Below, piece after piece: positions 40,792 to 48,968 of a stretch of DNA of 64,000 nt. Source of the DNA: Dyadobacter alkalitolerans DSM 23607 (GTDB lineage Bacteria > Bacteroidota > Bacteroidia > Cytophagales > Spirosomataceae); contig NZ_AUAS01000001.1 in assembly GCF_000428845.1 (NCBI RefSeq), positions 1 through 64,000 on the forward strand. Direction: 5' to 3'. The number at the start of each line of letters is the position of its first letter. The stretch's first letter is position 1. Under the pieces are notes generated by a model. It made no database searches. It was given only the letters and a program-made list of their open reading frames with translations, and was not told the DNA's origin. Made by a program: the position numbers and the translations under genes.

Positions 40792-41700
40792 ATGAATAAA
40801 AAGGTAAACATTGGCATCGTCCAAATGAGCTGCACGGAGGACGTGGAGGCAAATTTCCAGAAAGCTGTGCAGGGCATCCGGGATGCCGCGGCGAAGGGCG
40901 CCAACATTGTATGTCTTCAAGAACTTTTCCGCTCGCTGTATTTCTGCGATGTGGAAGATCACAAAAATTTCCTCCTGGCCGAGCCGATTCCTGGTCCTTC
41001 CACGGAGTCGTTAAGCGCACTGGCGAAGGAACTCGGCGTGGTGATTATTGCCTCCCTTTTCGAAAAACGGGCGCACGGATTGTATCATAACACCACGGCG
41101 GTTCTGGATGCGGATGGATCCTATCTGGGCAAATACCGGAAAATGCACATTCCGGATGATCCGGGTTATTACGAGAAATTTTATTTCACACCCGGTGATG
41201 CTGCCTTGGGCGAGTCCGTGGGTGAAGCGGGTGACAAAGATGGTTACCGCGTTTTTGATACAAAATTTGCAAAGATCGGTGTACTCATTTGCTGGGATCA
41301 ATGGTATCCTGAAGCGGCCCGCATTACGAGCTTGATGGGCGCTGAAATTTTGTTTTATCCAACTGCCATCGGCTGGGACACCAATGAAACCGATCCAATT
41401 ATTAATGAAGAGCAATACGGCGCGTGGCAAACGATCCAGCGCGGACATGCCGTTGCAAATGGCGTTTACGTCGTTGCTGTAAACCGGACAGGCCGCGAAG
41501 TAGACCAGCAGTTCTGGGGCGGATCGTTCATCGCTAACCCGCAAGGACGGTTGCTGTATCTCGCGCCGCACGAAGAGGAAGTAACGCATGTAGAAGAACT
41601 CGACTTGCAAAAGCTGGATTTTTACAGAACAACCTGGCCATTCCTGCGAGACCGCCGCATTGATTCCTACAAGCCAATTCTGAAACGCTATATCGACTAG
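40792..41700 (+). CDS. aguB: N-carbamoylputrescine amidase (carbon-nitrogen hydrolase)
   Basis: This 302-residue nitrilase-superfamily enzyme hydrolyses N-carbamoylputrescine to putrescine. The catalytic triad is visible as E44 (CLQELF), K117 (YRKMHIPDD) and C167 (LICWDQWYPE). HIPDDPGYYEKFYF and GWDTNETDPI are typical of AguB. Length is normal for AguB (about 295). The agmatine deiminase that makes its substrate is encoded at 50990, on the same strand but separated by the third susCD locus. A strong terminator follows. Confidence 0.9.
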   Translation: MNKKVNIGIVQMSCTEDVEANFQKAVQGIRDAAAKGANIVCLQELFRSLYFCDVEDHKNFLLAEPIPGPSTESLSALAKELGVVIIASLFEKRAHGLYHNTTAVLDADGSYLGKYRKMHIPDDPGYYEKFYFTPGDAALGESVGEAGDKDGYRVFDTKFAKIGVLICWDQWYPEAARITSLMGAEILFYPTAIGWDTNETDPIINEEQYGAWQTIQRGHAVANGVYVVAVNRTGREVDQQFWGGSFIANPQGRLLYLAPHEEEVTHVEELDLQKLDFYRTTWPFLRDRRIDSYKPILKRYID

Positions 41701-41735
41701 CAATTACCAATTAATATAATTATTCTTAGATAAAT

Positions 41736-41770
41736 AAAAAGAGGACTTCCTAACGGGAGCCCTCTTTTTG
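41736..41770 (+). terminator. Intrinsic terminator after aguB
   Basis: AGAGGACTTCC (41740-41750) and GGGAGCCCTCT (41755-41765) form an 11-position stem with one mismatch and one G-U, extended by flanking A and T runs, and followed by TTTTTG. Confidence 0.85.
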
Positions 41771-42034: not shown

Positions 42035-42064
42035 TTGCATTATTTCACATTGTCAGTATATTTG
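42035..42064 (+). promoter_or_regulatory. Consensus Bacteroidota promoter for the structured RNA/susC leader
   Basis: TTG at 42035-42037, a 19-base spacer and TATATTTG at 42057-42064 fit the -33 TTG and -7 TAnnTTTG boxes. The predicted start is near 42070. It is about 410 bases before the third susC and no other good promoter is seen between them. Confidence 0.75.
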
Positions 42065-42069
42065 AGAAG

Positions 42070-42434
42070 TCGTTAAACGAATGACTGAACTTCTTAAAAG
42101 CAGATGTATTCCAGCCGCACATGAATATATCTGTCTGTATCAGGAGAAAGATTGAATAAATCCGGCTGCGATAACCAAACGCATCCGGCAGGTTCTATCC
42201 AGGTACAATATAATTTTTTCAATAACAGGTTTACCAGGAACACCGTGGACAGGCAAATGTCTGCGCTAGGATTGCTTTGTTTTTGCCTAAGCGCGAAATG
42301 CTGTCTGTCCTCGATTTAAGAGGGTATTGCTTTCCGGAAAAGCAGTTTTGCAAGCTTATGGCTGTGTTGTTCTGTCCACGCGAAAGTGTGTGCGGCGCAC
42401 GGCAACGTGGACACCACACAGCCATAACTTTTTT
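42070..42434 (+). ncRNA. Structured RNA (leader or independent ncRNA) of about 365 nt
   Basis: This region between a consensus promoter and a strong terminator can fold into consecutive hairpins. They are CAGATGTATTC/GAATATATCTG (42101-42111 with 42123-42133, one mismatch), CCGGCTGCG/CGCATCCGG (42162-42170 with 42180-42188, one mismatch), GCGCTAGG/CCTAAGCGC (42263-42270 with 42286-42294, one bulge), TGCTTT/AAAGCA (42328-42333 with 42339-42344) and the terminator stem. It holds no convincing protein-coding frame. No tmRNA, RNase P, TPP or cobalamin signature is seen (no GCCACTG box, no CCA tRNA end). It is either a cis-regulatory leader of susC or a separate small RNA. Confidence 0.6.
42357..42434 (+). 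terminator. Large intrinsic terminator or attenuator before susC
   Basis: TATGGCTGTGT (42357-42367) pairs with ACACAGCCATA (42416-42426) and TGTCCACG (42373-42380) pairs with CGTGGACA (42406-42413). This gives 19 bp with an internal loop, and TTTTTT follows at 42429-42434. It ends 47 bases before the susC start with no visible promoter in between, so susC expression needs read-through. Confidence 0.8.
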
Positions 42435-42481: not shown

Positions 42482-45400
42482 ATGCGTAAAGTTCTACTCT
42501 TATTATTATGGGCCTCTCTTACTGCTCCGCTTGCCTACGCTCAGGTGCGCCAGATCAGCGGGAAAATTACAGCAGCAGACGATGGCCTCGGACTTGCAGG
42601 CGCCTCTATCATATTCAAAGGAACCAATGTGGGTTCAAATGCAGATGCAGACGGAAAATTCAGCTTTTCTGTCCCGGGTGATGGTATTCTTGTGGTTTCT
42701 TATGTTGGTTTCTTAATTAAAGAATTGCCCATCGGCAACCAGACCCAATTTGACATAAAACTTGACGCCGATACACGCCAGCTTGCCGAAGTGGTGGTTA
42801 CCGCTTTTGGTATAGAACGTGAGAAAAAAGCATTGGGCTACACAGTCCAGGAAGTAAAAGGAAGCTCATTAACAGAATCGCGCTCTACGAACGTGGCCAA
42901 CGCATTATCAGGTAAAATTGCCGGTGTGCGTGTGCAATCCAATGGCGGCCCGGGCAGCAGCTCGACCATCCAAATCCGCGGATCTTCTTCGGTTTCAGGA
43001 AATAACCAGCCGCTGATCGTTATCGATGGTGTGCCTATGGAGCAAACGGCCAATAAAACGTTGGGAGGCGGAATTTCGGAGGTTAACCCCGACAACATTA
43101 AAGAAATGTCTGTTTTGAAAGGCCCTAATGCAGCCGCATTATATGGTTCACGTGCAGCAAACGGAGTTATTTTGATTACAACTAAAAACGGACAGGGCAC
43201 AAAAGGATTGGGTGTGGAAGTAAACTCAAACATTACATTCGAACGTCCCTGGATCAAGCCTGACTTTCAGAATACATATGGCGGCGGAAGCGGTTACCGG
43301 ACCTGGTATAACGATGGATGGAGCTCTTCTATCACGGATCCTGCGCAAATCGCACAATACAGAGCTGTTTATGACGCAAGATATCCTCTCGCTGGTTCAG
43401 AGGGAACGGATGAAAGCTGGGGAGCGCCTATGGATGGTCGTATGGTGAGACAGTGGTGGACTGGTGACGATGTTGCACCACTGACTCCTCAGCCTAATAA
43501 CTGGGAAGAATACTGGCAGACAGGCCGCACGATTACAAACTCAGTGGCACTTTCCGGCGGTAACGACAAAGGCTATTTCCGTTTGGGACTGAGCCGGGTG
43601 GATCAGAAAGGGATTATGTATTACAATGATTTCCACAGAAACAACTTTCGCATTAATTCCGGATACAACCTGACCAAAAATATCAGCGTAACATTATCAG
43701 GAGAGTATATCAAATCAGGCTCCGACAACCGCAGCTATGCAGCTGGTCAGGAGTTTATCTGGTCGCACCGCAGCGTTTCATGGGATCAGCTCCGCAATTA
43801 CGAACAATATGCTGATGTGCATAACCAGAAAGCCGGCGACACAAATCCACCAAACTGGCAGCATACATTCTTTACAAACCCTTATTTTTCTCAACTTAAA
43901 ATGCCATCCGGCAATGAGAAAGACAGGTTGTTAGGAAACATCGCATTGAATTACAAAATCCTGCCTTCGCTTTCCTTAATGCTTCGCTCGGGAACGGATT
44001 ACTGGTCGGATACGCGTATCAATGTGACCAACTTCCTCCGCGTTCGTAACGGAACAAGAACACCGGGACGATTCAACGAAGAAGTGCTGCGCAGCCAGGA
44101 AACAAATACGGATTTCATGCTGACTTACAATAAAAACATTACAAGTGATTTTGGCGTGAATGTTCAGCTTGGCGGAATCCAGCGTAAGAATTATTACAAA
44201 AGAAATTACTTCGCTGTGGGTGAAATGGTTGTGGACGGCCTTTATAACGCAGGAAACTCAGTGCCGAGCGCCAACACGATTGAAAGTAAAATCGAAGAAT
44301 CAGAAACACAAAGCCTGTTCGGAACGGCGAACTTCTCGTGGAGAGACGGCCTGTTCCTTGACCTTACTGCGCGAAACGACTGGTCAAGCACATTGCCTTC
44401 CAATGCACGCTCTTACTTCTATCCCTCTGCTTCTTTGAGTGCTGTGGTTACTGAGTTGTTTGATGTGAAAAGCAGTGTTTTGTCATTTGGTAAAATCCGT
44501 GCGAGTTATGCACAGGTTGGCAACGATGCACTTCCTTATCAGCTTGCGCAAACATTCACAGCGAGCGGTTCATGGAATGGTGCTGTACCAAAATTTGCCG
44601 AAAACATTCAAATCGCAAACTCTGAGCTGAAACCTGAAATCACAACCGGTCTTGAACTCGGTGCTGACGTGCGTTTTTTCAAAGGAAAAGTGGGATTAGA
44701 TGTCACTTACTATGAGCAGACTACAAAAGATCAGATCCTGGGTGTTGAAATTTCAAAAGCAAGTGGTTATGACAAAAGAATCCTGAATGCAGGAAAGATC
44801 ACCAACAAAGGCGTTGAAGTAACATTGTCCGGAACGCCTGTAAAATTGTCGAATGGTTTCAGCTGGGAAGTTTCTTTAAACTATGCCCGCAACCGCAATA
44901 AAGTGGTTGAGCTGGCAGAAGGACTGACGACTTACACATTGGCCACACAACGCGGCATGACCTCAGAAGCACGTGTTGGGGAGTCTTATGGAACATTCTA
45001 CGGTGTGGGATTCCAGAAATCACCGGACGGACAAACTGTTTACGGAGCAAACGGCTTACCGGTTACGGCTTCCAATCAAAAACTGGGTAATGTTCAACCC
45101 GACTGGATCGGTGGAATGCTGAACACATTCTACTATAAAGGTTTCTCTTTAAGTGCATTGGTTGATGTGCGCATCGGCGGTGACATTTATGACGAAGGAA
45201 CAGGAACAGCGCGCTGGACAGGTCAATATGCAGAAACGGCATTGGGACGCGAAGAAGGTGTGATCGGCAAAGGCGTTCGGGAAGTTACAGGAGCGGATGG
45301 TTCTAAATCCTACATTCCTAATGACATCATCGTAACAGCAAACCAATTGTACGGTTACAGCAATCCACGTAACTATCACGAATCAGCGATTTTTGATGCG

Positions 45401-45640
45401 AGTTATGTAAAGCTGCGCGAGGTCTCCCTGGGTTACAGCATCAGCCCTTCATTTCTGAAAAAAATCAAAATTCAGTCTGCAAAGCTTTCAGTAGTAGGAC
45501 GTAACGTGTGGATGATTTTCAAGAACACGCCGCACATCGATCCTGAAATTGACGCAAAAGGAGCCAACGGACAAGGTTTCGGTTACGGCGAGCTGCCTAG
45601 CTCACGCAGCGTGGGTATGAACCTGTCATTGTCATTCTGA
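42482..45640 (+). CDS. SusC/RagA TonB-dependent receptor (no STN domain)
   Basis: This outer-membrane importer of 1052 residues has a signal peptide at MRKVLLLLLWASLTAPLAYA, followed by the carboxypeptidase-regulatory-like domain (about 22-100; GKITAADDGLGLAGASIIFKG). The SusC box LAEVVVTAFGIEREKKALGY is at about 101-120. The plug has VIDGVPMEQ and GSRAANGVILITTKNG, and the barrel ends SVGMNLSLSF with terminal Phe. The AFGIEREKKALGY form is a subgroup that often pairs with the SusD-like_2 family, as it does here. The leader contains a large structured RNA ending in a terminator. Its substrate may not be a glycan, because the operon holds an aminotransferase and an AEC permease. Confidence 0.95.
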   Translation: MRKVLLLLLWASLTAPLAYAQVRQISGKITAADDGLGLAGASIIFKGTNVGSNADADGKFSFSVPGDGILVVSYVGFLIKELPIGNQTQFDIKLDADTRQLAEVVVTAFGIEREKKALGYTVQEVKGSSLTESRSTNVANALSGKIAGVRVQSNGGPGSSSTIQIRGSSSVSGNNQPLIVIDGVPMEQTANKTLGGGISEVNPDNIKEMSVLKGPNAAALYGSRAANGVILITTKNGQGTKGLGVEVNSNITFERPWIKPDFQNTYGGGSGYRTWYNDGWSSSITDPAQIAQYRAVYDARYPLAGSEGTDESWGAPMDGRMVRQWWTGDDVAPLTPQPNNWEEYWQTGRTITNSVALSGGNDKGYFRLGLSRVDQKGIMYYNDFHRNNFRINSGYNLTKNISVTLSGEYIKSGSDNRSYAAGQEFIWSHRSVSWDQLRNYEQYADVHNQKAGDTNPPNWQHTFFTNPYFSQLKMPSGNEKDRLLGNIALNYKILPSLSLMLRSGTDYWSDTRINVTNFLRVRNGTRTPGRFNEEVLRSQETNTDFMLTYNKNITSDFGVNVQLGGIQRKNYYKRNYFAVGEMVVDGLYNAGNSVPSANTIESKIEESETQSLFGTANFSWRDGLFLDLTARNDWSSTLPSNARSYFYPSASLSAVVTELFDVKSSVLSFGKIRASYAQVGNDALPYQLAQTFTASGSWNGAVPKFAENIQIANSELKPEITTGLELGADVRFFKGKVGLDVTYYEQTTKDQILGVEISKASGYDKRILNAGKITNKGVEVTLSGTPVKLSNGFSWEVSLNYARNRNKVVELAEGLTTYTLATQRGMTSEARVGESYGTFYGVGFQKSPDGQTVYGANGLPVTASNQKLGNVQPDWIGGMLNTFYYKGFSLSALVDVRIGGDIYDEGTGTARWTGQYAETALGREEGVIGKGVREVTGADGSKSYIPNDIIVTANQLYGYSNPRNYHESAIFDASYVKLREVSLGYSISPSFLKKIKIQSAKLSVVGRNVWMIFKNTPHIDPEIDAKGANGQGFGYGELPSSRSVGMNLSLSF

Positions 45641-45669: not shown

Positions 45670-47148
45670 ATGAGAAATATATTAAATCATAAAACCATTT
45701 GGATGACGGCACTTGCAGGGATTCTTACTGCATCAAGCTGCACCAAAGATTTTGATGAAATGAATACAAGTCCGAACAGCCCTACGGCCATTGGACCACA
45801 GTATTTGCTTCCTACCGGCATTGAAACCGCCATCGACCGTTACTGGGGACACCGCACCCGTTTCGAACGGATCAACATTGATGCAGCCGAACTTTATGTG
45901 CAGCATTTGACCCGTAATATTTATTCCAATGAAGGCGATGATTACACGGTTTCGCCTGCATTGGTTGCCAACAACTGGAAAGGATTTTACAACGATTCGC
46001 AACTCAATTTCCAACGCATCATTACGATGAGCGGCGAAGGATCGGCCAATCCACACTCGAACTATGAAGGCGTCGCATTAGTAATGCGCACCTGGGTATT
46101 CTCCTTGCTAACAGACCTTTATGGAGCCATTCCCTACACCGACGCGATCAATGGAACAGCGGATTCGCCTGTTTACACACCTAAATACGACGCTATGGAA
46201 GTGGTTTACGCAGGAATGCTGAACGACCTGAAAATGGCCAACGAAAAACTGGTTGTAGGCGGCCCGGCCGTTGCGGGTGACATTATGTATGGAGGTGATA
46301 TCCTGAAATGGAAAAAATTCGCGAATTCGTTGCGCCTTCGCCTTGCGAACCGTCAGGCTGCGAAAAAACCTGCTGAGTCCAAAGCCATTATGACCGAGAT
46401 CGTAAGCGACGCCAAAAAATTCCCGATTTTCACCAGCAACGCAGACAATGCTCAGCTGAACTGCACAGCGGTTCTGCCTAGTAACAACGAGTGGAACCAG
46501 GTGATGAAGCAGGATGGCCGCACCGACTGGAACATCAGCAAAACGCTGGCTGACAAGATGAATGCACTGGACGACAGCCGCATCAAGGTGTATGCCAACC
46601 CAAACAAAGACGGCAAATACGAAGGCCACCCAAACGGCCTGCCTGACGCTATCGCCACCACTTACCTGGCAACAAGCTCCACCATTGGCGATGCATTTAC
46701 CAAAATGGATGCCCCGGAGGTAATCATGACATTTGCCGAATTGAATTTTATCCTGGCCGAAGCAGCATTGGACGGCGAGATCACTGGCAGCCCTAAGACA
46801 TATTTTGATGCCGGCATCGCCGCCTCATTTGCACAATATGGCTTAACACCTCCTGCATCATTCATTACCAAACTCGGCGCCGTGACGCGGGAAAAAGTAT
46901 TGGAGCAAAAATGGGTAGCATTGTTTGCACAGGGTGTTGAAGCCTGGGCAGAATGGCGCAGAACCGGAATCCCGGTGTTTCCGGCACCAGACCCGCGCGC
47001 AGTGTTGCAAAACGGAGGCATCCTGCCCACCCGCTTCCCCTATCCCAACTCAGAATATTCACTGAATGCTGAGTCTGTAAAAGCAGGAGAAGGCCTGAAC
47101 GGCGGCCCTAATGACATGAAAACCAAGCTTTGGTGGGTAGAAAAGTAA
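45670..47148 (+). CDS. SusD-like lipoprotein (SusD-like_2 family)
   Basis: This 492-residue surface lipoprotein has its lipobox at TASSC (Cys about residue 24), followed by TKDFDEMN. The segment MNTSPNSPTAIGPQYLLPTG and the arrangement LLTDLYGAIPYTDA, KWKKFANSLRLRLANRQ and WVALFAQGVEAWAEWRRTG are those of the SusD/RagB-like_2 group rather than the classical SusD. It lies 29 bases after susC and forms the ligand lid. A small lipoprotein gene follows after 40 bases. Confidence 0.93.
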   Translation: MRNILNHKTIWMTALAGILTASSCTKDFDEMNTSPNSPTAIGPQYLLPTGIETAIDRYWGHRTRFERINIDAAELYVQHLTRNIYSNEGDDYTVSPALVANNWKGFYNDSQLNFQRIITMSGEGSANPHSNYEGVALVMRTWVFSLLTDLYGAIPYTDAINGTADSPVYTPKYDAMEVVYAGMLNDLKMANEKLVVGGPAVAGDIMYGGDILKWKKFANSLRLRLANRQAAKKPAESKAIMTEIVSDAKKFPIFTSNADNAQLNCTAVLPSNNEWNQVMKQDGRTDWNISKTLADKMNALDDSRIKVYANPNKDGKYEGHPNGLPDAIATTYLATSSTIGDAFTKMDAPEVIMTFAELNFILAEAALDGEITGSPKTYFDAGIAASFAQYGLTPPASFITKLGAVTREKVLEQKWVALFAQGVEAWAEWRRTGIPVFPAPDPRAVLQNGGILPTRFPYPNSEYSLNAESVKAGEGLNGGPNDMKTKLWWVEK

Positions 47149-47188: not shown

Positions 47189-47671
47189 ATGAAAAATTTC
47201 AAGACATACATTCCCGCTCTTTGCCTCGCGCTTACGCTATCGTTGGGGATGACCTCGTGCAAAGAAGAAGATCCGTTCCTGGATGTAGATGTTGCACCCG
47301 TGCTGGTAGACATTGTAGGCGCAGCATTCGGCGCGCCCATTGCGAGCGAGCCAACCGTGGGTTACCAGTCAACTGCACCCAAGCTTACCCTTTCGGCCAG
47401 GTTACTGGAACTCGACAAGACCAACATTCTCGACCATACCAAAGGCATTGATTCCATTCCCGTTCCAAATGTCGCGATCAAAATAACATTGCGCTCGGGA
47501 GCCGTTTTAGGCGAGGTTACTTCCAATGCACAAGGCCTTGTAACGATCGATAAAACCTGGGCTGAACTGGGCGTACCAACACCCAAGGCAGGCGCGGTTA
47601 CCAAAATTTCCTGGACGGGATCTTATAAGGGAATTGCGTTCACGCGGTTTTCTCAAATACAAGCTAACTAA
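47189..47671 (+). CDS. Small lipoprotein of unknown function in the third susCD locus
   Basis: This 160-residue lipoprotein has a signal peptide ending in the lipobox GMTSC (Cys about residue 24), then an acidic stretch KEEDPFLDVD that favours surface export. The rest is predicted beta-rich, with an Ig-like or carboxypeptidase-regulatory-like look (VAIKITLRSGAVLGEVTSNA, GLVTIDKTWAELG). I do not recognise a family. Being third after susC and susD, it may be an accessory surface binding protein. Confidence 0.75.
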   Translation: MKNFKTYIPALCLALTLSLGMTSCKEEDPFLDVDVAPVLVDIVGAAFGAPIASEPTVGYQSTAPKLTLSARLLELDKTNILDHTKGIDSIPVPNVAIKITLRSGAVLGEVTSNAQGLVTIDKTWAELGVPTPKAGAVTKISWTGSYKGIAFTRFSQIQAN

Positions 47672-47777: not shown

Positions 47778-48968
47778 ATGACTCAAAAAATGGACCGTCG
47801 AAATCTGTTAAAATCCGGTTTAATGGCAATCGGAGGAATGACTTTGGCACCGCATCTGAGCATGGGTGCATTCTCAAACACGCCGCTTAGTCTGGATCCT
47901 GAAAACCGCATTTTCCGCAGCCCAATGGTAAGAGAACATTTCTTACCAAACGACTTCAAAGCACCGAAGATCATTGCGAAACTGAACTCCAATGAGAACC
48001 CATACGGGCCTCCTATGTCGGCGCAAAAAGCGGTTGCTGATTCTGTGAAGAACGGAAATCGTTACGCTTGGAAAGAAATGTATGATCTGATTGATAAAAT
48101 TGCCAAAAAGGAAGGCGTTCCGGCGGACCACATTATGATGGGACCGGGATCATCTGATCTTTTGGAAAAAGTGGCTTTAGTAACTTTTATGAACGGAAAA
48201 GGAAACATTGTTTCTGCCGATCCTTGCTATATGTCGCTCGTTCAGGTTGCGAAATCCGTAGGCGCAACCTGGAAACCCGTTCCCTGCACAGCCGACTGGT
48301 CACACGACCTGAAAGCCATGGAAGCGGCGATCGACAGCGAAACAAAACTGGTTTACGTTTGTAACCCAAACAACCCGACCGGCGCGATCACAAAAGGTCA
48401 GGATCTGGTTGATTTCTGCTCACGTGTTTCGGAAAAAGTGCCTGTATTTGTAGATGAGGCTTACATTGAGCTTGCTGTTGGTGCGGATACGAAAAGCATG
48501 GTTTCGCTTTTATCGCAAAAGAAAAATGTAATCGTAGCCCGCACGTTCTCCAAAATCATGGGAATGGCCGGAATCCGGGTAGGTTATATGGTGGCGCTGC
48601 CTACTTACCTGGCGACGATTAATAAGATCACGCGTGGTGGAATGGGCATTTCTTACACGTCCATTTTCGCAGCATCGGCAAGCATGGACGACAGCGCATT
48701 CCAGGACAACACCCGCAAACTGAACCACGAAGCGAAACTTTACCTATACGAAAACCTGGATAAACTGGGATACAAATACATTCCTTCTTATACCAACTTC
48801 GTACTCTTCCCGATCAGCATCACCGGTAAGGAACTCCTCACCAAGATGAGCGAAAAAGGCGTTGCCGTAAGATCATTCGACATTCAAAACAAGCCCTGGT
48901 GCCGCGTCAGCATCGGAACCATGGACGAAATGAAATCCTTCGTCGGCGCGCTGAACCAGCTGAGCTGA
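47778..48968 (+). CDS. PLP-dependent aminotransferase (HisC-like) with Tat-like leader
   Basis: This fold-type I aminotransferase of 396 residues starts at ATG 47778; the longer frame from 47634 runs into the preceding gene and has no leader logic. The N-terminus MDRRNLLKSGLMAIGGMTLA is a twin-arginine-like signal, so export to the periplasm is predicted. Catalytic parts are AKLNSNENPYGPP, MMGPGSSDLLEKVAL, YVCNPNNPTGAITKG, FVDEAYIEL and the PLP lysine in ARTFSKIMGMAGIRVGY. Relatives include histidinol-phosphate aminotransferases, but the reaction here is unknown. Family enzymes of this subset with leader peptides are common in Bacteroidota. It follows the susCD/lipoprotein genes and precedes an AEC permease, suggesting that an imported amino compound is processed. 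Confidence 0.85.
   Translation: MTQKMDRRNLLKSGLMAIGGMTLAPHLSMGAFSNTPLSLDPENRIFRSPMVREHFLPNDFKAPKIIAKLNSNENPYGPPMSAQKAVADSVKNGNRYAWKEMYDLIDKIAKKEGVPADHIMMGPGSSDLLEKVALVTFMNGKGNIVSADPCYMSLVQVAKSVGATWKPVPCTADWSHDLKAMEAAIDSETKLVYVCNPNNPTGAITKGQDLVDFCSRVSEKVPVFVDEAYIELAVGADTKSMVSLLSQKKNVIVARTFSKIMGMAGIRVGYMVALPTYLATINKITRGGMGISYTSIFAASASMDDSAFQDNTRKLNHEAKLYLYENLDKLGYKYIPSYTNFVLFPISITGKELLTKMSEKGVAVRSFDIQNKPWCRVSIGTMDEMKSFVGALNQLS

Follow-up and report, generated by a model that had tools for sequence, protein, structure and literature searches.

A conserved structured RNA with two complementary hairpin loops, probably the 5' leader of a SusC operon, in Dyadobacter and its relatives

The region in front of a susC gene of Dyadobacter alkalitolerans contains an RNA of about 365 nt (42065-42434, + strand, the same strand as susC), which we regard as probably the 5' leader of a SusC-SusD-lipoprotein-aminotransferase mRNA and as a new class of cis-acting structured RNA. 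Its most characteristic feature is the complementarity between the loops of two hairpins, one near each end, which appear to form a kissing loop. The window, that is, the whole stretch of DNA analysed, is 64,000 nucleotides long and belongs to a genome of 6.29 Mb. In it, the RNA is located between a carbon-nitrogen hydrolase gene (40792-41700, PF00795), its 5' neighbour, and susC (42482-45640). The gene upstream of the RNA differs among loci (for example, L045). A terminator-like hairpin (41746-41759) lies 3' of the hydrolase gene; its surroundings (41735-41770) are A-rich before and T-rich after the hairpin, which is possibly bidirectional.

The region 42065-42434 is a conserved structured RNA and not a product of chance. 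DNA searches found it as a single copy in its own genome and in all of the 48 genomes of the genus, the own genome included. The predicted fold of 42066-42434 (-123.1 kcal/mol) was more stable than those of shuffled sequences (mean -97.3; z -4.8), none of the 100 shuffles being as good. In the 48-row alignment, the most conserved parts are the promoter core, 42114-42120, and the block 42306-42433, whereas 42140-42244 and 42256-42300 drift within the genus; the middle of the RNA is poorly conserved in other groups as well. The genus model, 62 pairs drawn from the window sequence, was paired in 97.7% of the cells of the alignment. Changes on both sides of a pair, named in the first-pass annotation as the observation that would support the stems, were found in 22 of the 62 pairs (6.4 in shuffled alignments, 8-13 in slid versions of the model) and in 67 cells (14.7 and 12-28, respectively); the relatedness of the sequences inflates the shuffle tests, but the slid control retains this relatedness and agrees.

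The RNA is non-coding and matches none of the families searched. The absence of a convincing coding frame, noted earlier, was borne out: an early ATG frame varies from 4 to 43 codons and differs in frame between species (in 3 of 48 rows, the pattern missed its start), and a leader peptide was ruled out because this frame shifts and breaks between species. Rfam 15 covariance models gave no match at gathering cut-offs in the whole window, and each of the nine matches obtained around the RNA at E<=10 was under its cut-off, in agreement with the previous failure to assign it to a known family. No tRNA or tmRNA gene was detected in the window by ARAGORN. 6S RNA was excluded, since RF00013 had no match in the own genome and the same search was positive in 5 of 14 control genomes.

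The 5' end of the RNA is preceded by a promoter-like element (42035-42064, + strand) consisting of TTG (42035-42037), 19 nucleotides, and TATATTTG (42057-42064), exactly as the first-pass annotation had described it. We take TTG-N19-TATATTTG to be the Bacteroidetes promoter type, and a transcript start near 42069 would be expected. In the alignment, TCAGTATATTTGA showed no variation in 48 of 48 genus rows. The pattern TAnnTTTG was present 38-72 nt before the loop core described below in all 48 genus loci and in 17 of 38 loci of other genera, as compared with 17 of 514 background windows. In leaders of genera other than Dyadobacter (L101, L104, L105, L109, L110, L112-L114, L116, and L119), the word GTACAA occurs after the promoter region, upstream of the first hairpin.

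P1, P2, P3, and P5, all on the + strand, precede the last hairpin. P1 (42069-42085) is a short hairpin of 6 bp (42069-42074 with 42080-42085); 99.0% of its cells were paired and three of its six pairs had both-side changes. P2 (42101-42133) has 11 bp and an 11-nt loop that holds the first kissing segment. In the comparison that included 32 of 54 sequences, 10 of the 11 pairs of P2 had both-side changes, the number of cells with such changes was 59 (13.5 in shuffles), and none of the five measures was reached by any of 500 shuffles. P3 (42247-42310), a genus-level stem of 9 bp (42247-42255 with 42302-42310) around a variable stretch, was paired in 98.1% of cells, with both-side changes in five of nine pairs. 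P5 (42327-42345, TTGCTTTCCGGAAAAGCAG) is highly conserved in sequence; 99.1% of its cells were paired and no pair had changes on both sides, so that this predicted pairing is unproven by covariation. Four additional hairpins had been proposed previously, of which 42101-42133 and 42328-42344 are conserved, whereas 42162-42188 and 42263-42294 are not clearly so. The latter two sit in fast-evolving stretches, and the mean fold z around them was -1.07 and -1.35, respectively, against -2.99 for 42098-42136; because of this weak fold signal, they were set aside. An alternative pairing of 42244-42252 (CGTGGACAG) with 42372-42380 (CTGTCCACG) is the best complement in some genus members (for example, L149), but by eye it is lost in L046 and L048, and P3 provides a better conserved partner than CTGTCCACG for the 42244-42252 region.

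The last hairpin, P6 (42356-42427, + strand), is long and consists of three stems (42356-42366/42417-42427, 42373-42380/42406-42413, and 42386-42388/42398-42400), in which 98.4-100% of cells were paired and 5 of 22 pairs had both-side changes. In other genera, its stems are replaced, as judged by eye, by different complementary sequences. In the window, P6 is followed by a run of six T (42429-42434), and within the genus the run has at least four T in 46 of 48 sequences and three T in the other two. The terminator proposed by the first-pass annotation is present as a terminator-like hairpin with T6 but is lineage-specific: by automatic folding, at least five T within 8 nt after the last hairpin were found in only 5 of 38 loci of other genera. 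Since most of these last hairpins have no T-run, transcription would be expected to run on there. In 29 of the 38 automatic folds, the last hairpin ended 27-64 nt before the SusC match; thus, it is not obvious that this hairpin could block the start site directly. In Dyadobacter, the T6 run suggests that most transcripts, if nothing interferes with termination, end before susC, like a free RNA.

The distribution of the RNA was analysed by two routes. A covariance model of its 3' part (R1) matched, under strict filters, 54 of 222 genomes of the family, namely the 48 genus genomes and six in five other genera; in all of the six, the RNA stands just 5' of the same SusC orthologue and on the same strand. 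Applied with strict filters to 390 genomes of the order, a second model (R2), built from 16 of the 22 P6 sequences that had been aligned, gave matches in 23, none of them outside the family. As the matches of R2 were confined to the family, further members were sought through SusC. Orthologues of 63-79% identity were found in 55 of the 80 non-genus family genomes searched (out of 174), and the upstream regions of 40 of them were taken, six others being already in the sample. One record among the loci, titled Thalassovita (L207), carries a Bacteroidota-type SusC; we take Thalassovita to be an alphaproteobacterium, and this contig is probably mis-binned.

In most of the regions beyond the genus, the resemblance to the Dyadobacter RNA was lost, yet two hairpin loops stayed complementary to each other, the second hairpin standing just before SusC. 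In the window, the first segment is GCCGCAC in the loop of P2 (42114-42120, + strand; 42121 could form an eighth pair) and the second is its partner GTGCGGC in the apical loop of P6 (42390-42396, + strand). This loop-loop pairing of the first and last hairpins had been missed by the first-pass annotation. Both segments are without variation in the 48 genus rows, and across genera they change together. The combination GCCGCAC/GTGCGGC occurs in Dyadobacter, Rhabdobacter, Telluribacter, Arundinibacter, and Persicitalea; CTGGCCGC/GCGGCCAG, or longer, in loci of four genera (g10, g21, g28, and g33); TTCCGACCGC/GCGGTCGGAA, or close variants, in Emticicia, Lacihabitans, Arcicella aurantiaca, and Jiulongibacter; GCCGCAT/ATGCGGC in L108; and no more than GCCGCA/TGCGGC in Runella. 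On the basis of these sequences, the P2 loop and the P6 apical loop appear to form a kissing loop.

To locate the two segments, two anchors were defined by rules that make no use of complementarity: CCGCA in an upstream hairpin loop and, of the GCGGC and GCGGT words in hairpin loops before SusC, the last one. Both anchors were present in 48 of 48 genus regions, which had been picked for having the RNA, in 38 of 42 non-genus family regions fetched through SusC, and in 62 of 65 named family regions fetched in the same way; the two latter sets overlap in many genomes, and that of 65 includes Dyadobacter. Together, both motifs were found in 100 of these 107 SusC-fetched regions, and an unbroken Watson-Crick run of at least 6 bp through the core in 95, five of the 100 two-motif regions pairing over less than 6 bp under the rule used. 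The distance from core to core was 164-330 nt, save in two cases (402 and 498 nt) whose anchors are doubtful (L202 and L213); in L102, L104, and L105, which were kept in the counts, the rule probably took the wrong GCGG. The pair of motifs was absent in seven regions (L095, L121, L171, L192, L123, L106, and L175), two of which (L106 and L175) are contig ends and one of which (L123) has an 8-bp pairing without the CCGC core. A strict automatic search for hairpin pairs, which missed several of the pairs and gave weak chance pairs in other families, serves only as a gauge of noise.

As the anchor rule itself imposes the CCGC/GCGG core, the covariation figures concern the flanking columns. The pair adjoining the core was standard in all of the 52 distinct rows (G-C in 34, A-U in 16, and G-U in 2). 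Pairing was found in 289 of the 520 cells of ten flanking columns, as compared with 258.3 +/- 6.9 in 2000 shuffles (maximum 280), and 47 cells had both-side changes, as compared with 28.9 +/- 3.8 (maximum 42). The number of flanking columns with both-side changes, eight, was no better than that in shuffles (mean 7.9). When the partner was slid by 1-3 columns, the proportion of paired cells fell from 55.6% to 29-40% and both-side changes fell from 47 to 4-23. Among the three main sequence classes, the pairing is lengthened at opposite flanks of the core. The switch from G-C to A-U maps to one fully supported change on a tree of 44 SusC proteins, and thus the covariation of the kissing loop rests on few independent events, namely this switch, the changes in neighbouring columns, and L108. 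It could also be considered that each segment is conserved for contact with a protein or another RNA and that their mutual complementarity is secondary. The invariance of both segments within the genus, which leaves no covariation there, and the fixing of the core by the anchor rule are compatible with such contacts, but the concerted change of the flanking pairs across genera in three main sequence classes and the drop in the slid control argue against them, and we consider this explanation highly improbable.

In the upstream regions of SusC genes from other families, both motifs were found in only 1 of 26 (L128, which is G+C-rich); as the motif words were chosen after the family had been seen, this contrast is descriptive and not a test. 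There, the operon can be present without the RNA motifs (G225 and G384). On present evidence, the RNA seems to be confined to the GTDB family of Dyadobacter, the members of which are spread over several NCBI families.

The genes behind the RNA, all on the + strand, are susC (TIGR04056, OMP_RagA_SusC), the first gene after the leader; susD (45670-47148; SusD-like_2, PF12771); an open reading frame for a putative lipoprotein of 160 aa (47189-47671), with a lipobox recognized by eye and a bMG3 match under the Pfam cut-off; and a HisC-like PLP aminotransferase gene (47778-48968, PF00155), for which we chose the ATG at 47778 as the start, the frame in the list of open reading frames beginning at 47634. 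An RR motif (MDRRNLLKSG) near the N-terminus of the aminotransferase makes Tat export of this protein possible. The pyoverdine transaminase PtaA is among its NCBIfam matches; of the matches listed, all were below the cut-offs. SusD and, near it, a relative of the lipoprotein were found in 20 of 20 downstream regions (for five of these, the source is another family or the relocated G015 copy described below), and a HisC-like match in 14; identity was above 60% in only 6 of the 14, and some of these may be other aminotransferases. In L231, L232, and L233, where the RNA motifs are present, a HisC-like gene was not found in the 9 kb that follow SusC; thus, no single gene is the constant partner of the RNA.

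The converse is also observed. Eight of the 48 genus members (L035, L036, L037, L038, L042, L044, L045, and L047; one of the eight contigs is only 9 kb long) have neither SusC nor SusD at this locus, and there the aminotransferase gene is the first gene after the RNA, with a gap of 126-235 nt in seven; in the eighth (L045), the start of the gene is unclear. TAnnTTTG was found between P6 and the aminotransferase gene in none of the eight. In G015, the SusC-SusD-lipoprotein part has been relocated (L142) without the RNA, neither anchor being present in its upstream region, and the RNA stayed before the aminotransferase gene (L045). A pure SusC leader was therefore rejected as the sole description.

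These loci bear on the two alternatives left by the first-pass annotation, namely that the RNA regulates a SusC operon in cis as its leader or that it is a small RNA in its own right. As a free, trans-acting RNA of about 365 nt, it would have its own promoter and a terminator at 42434, and its position would be inherited rather than functional. The invariant promoter, the strong hairpin with the T-run in the genus, the retention of the RNA in the eight species without SusC/SusD at that place, and its absence beside the SusC copy elsewhere in G015 are in line with this idea. However, each of the 54 loci to which the RNA itself led has this SusC operon, whole or as a remnant, behind the RNA on the same strand, beginning with either SusC or the aminotransferase gene; the T-run is absent in most loci of other genera; and searches of the own genome gave no second copy, so we think that an independent small RNA is unlikely. 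The cis-acting leader is favoured by the position before the operon (54 of 54 RNA-found loci, and loop motifs before SusC in 100 of 107 regions) and by the missing T-run in most other genera; of the earlier proposal, the leader is thus retained, and SusC as its only partner is not.

A possible mechanism for such a leader is as follows. The promoter at 42035-42064 would start a transcript shared by the leader and the genes, in which P1 and P2 would form at once. P6 would follow some 275 nt beyond the P2 loop, shortly before the first gene. Pairing of the P6 apical loop with the P2 loop, over 7-8 bp here and as many as 11 bp in relatives, would then draw the leader together into a compact loop-loop fold. 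The RNA would determine the level of expression of the operon. Attenuation by P6 and T6 in Dyadobacter would end many of the transcripts at 42434, leaving the 365-nt RNA, and susC would be expressed by read-through past 42434. Where relatives lack the T-run, this fold may act on the mRNA itself, through its stability or translation. The leader may also sense a signal. A large riboswitch, or a leader sensing a protein, would have its binding site between P2 and P6, with the kissing loop locking one state. Transporters and enzymes are usual targets of riboswitches, loop-loop contacts are common in ligand-binding RNAs, and the partner genes here are a transporter and an enzyme. Against this, the core of an aptamer is usually the most conserved part, whereas the middle of this RNA is poorly conserved in the genus and in other groups, and there was no match to an Rfam riboswitch; such a sensor is very unlikely, in our view.

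More specifically, and tentatively, the leader may represent an undescribed class of riboregulator of the GTDB family of Dyadobacter, in which a loop-loop clamp joins the first hairpin of the leader to the hairpin before the gene. If this somewhat doubtful proposal is true, compensatory change would preserve the clamp despite the free drift of the 165-330 nt that separate its halves. The clamp would hold the ends of the leader together and decide between early termination and read-through of a nutrient-transporter operon; alternatively, its direct target would be RNA polymerase. In Bacteroidota, SusC/SusD transporters have a central role in nutrient uptake, and the RNA would then be a conserved class of leader RNA in an environmental family. 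It would also have a testable feature, as the pairing of two short loop segments can be broken and restored. Furthermore, a clamp over up to 330 nt of drifting RNA would be a clean natural system for long-range loop contacts, and could inform how such contacts control transcription or translation.

Among the titles and beginnings of abstracts listed as matches in literature searches on RNAs of Dyadobacter or Cytophagales, SusC leaders, and kissing-loop leaders, this RNA was not described. Riboswitches and attenuators with loop-loop contacts are 5' leaders with a compact fold through loop pairing and an optional terminator; the Dyadobacter RNA differs from them in having no Rfam match, loops mostly 165-330 nt apart, and a variable middle. 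Like 6S RNA (RF00013), it is a single-copy structured RNA with its own promoter, but the fold of 6S RNA is a single bubbled rod and the predicted fold of the Dyadobacter RNA is not. The RNA-level control of SusC loci or of leaders that we found in print is from gut Bacteroides (PMC7366714 and PMC10294740). At SusC loci of Bacteroides, DonS-type RNAs of 78-128 nt are reported to be divergently encoded and cis-antisense (PMC7366714). They are likewise small RNAs adjoining a susC homologue in Bacteroidota; in contrast, the Dyadobacter RNA is on the strand of susC, upstream of it, about 365 nt long, and has a long-range loop pairing (compare PMC7366714). Identity with a DonS-type cis-antisense RNA was rejected, as the promoter and hairpins are on the susC strand and the RNA is about 365 nt long. 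The roc mRNA leader of Bacteroides thetaiotaomicron, 54 nt in length, controls its gene independently of the promoter by a route described as unresolved (PMC10294740). Both are 5' mRNA leaders of a Bacteroidota gene if our reading of the Dyadobacter RNA is correct; however, the latter is about 365 nt long, as opposed to the 54 nt of roc, and has covarying helices (compare PMC10294740).
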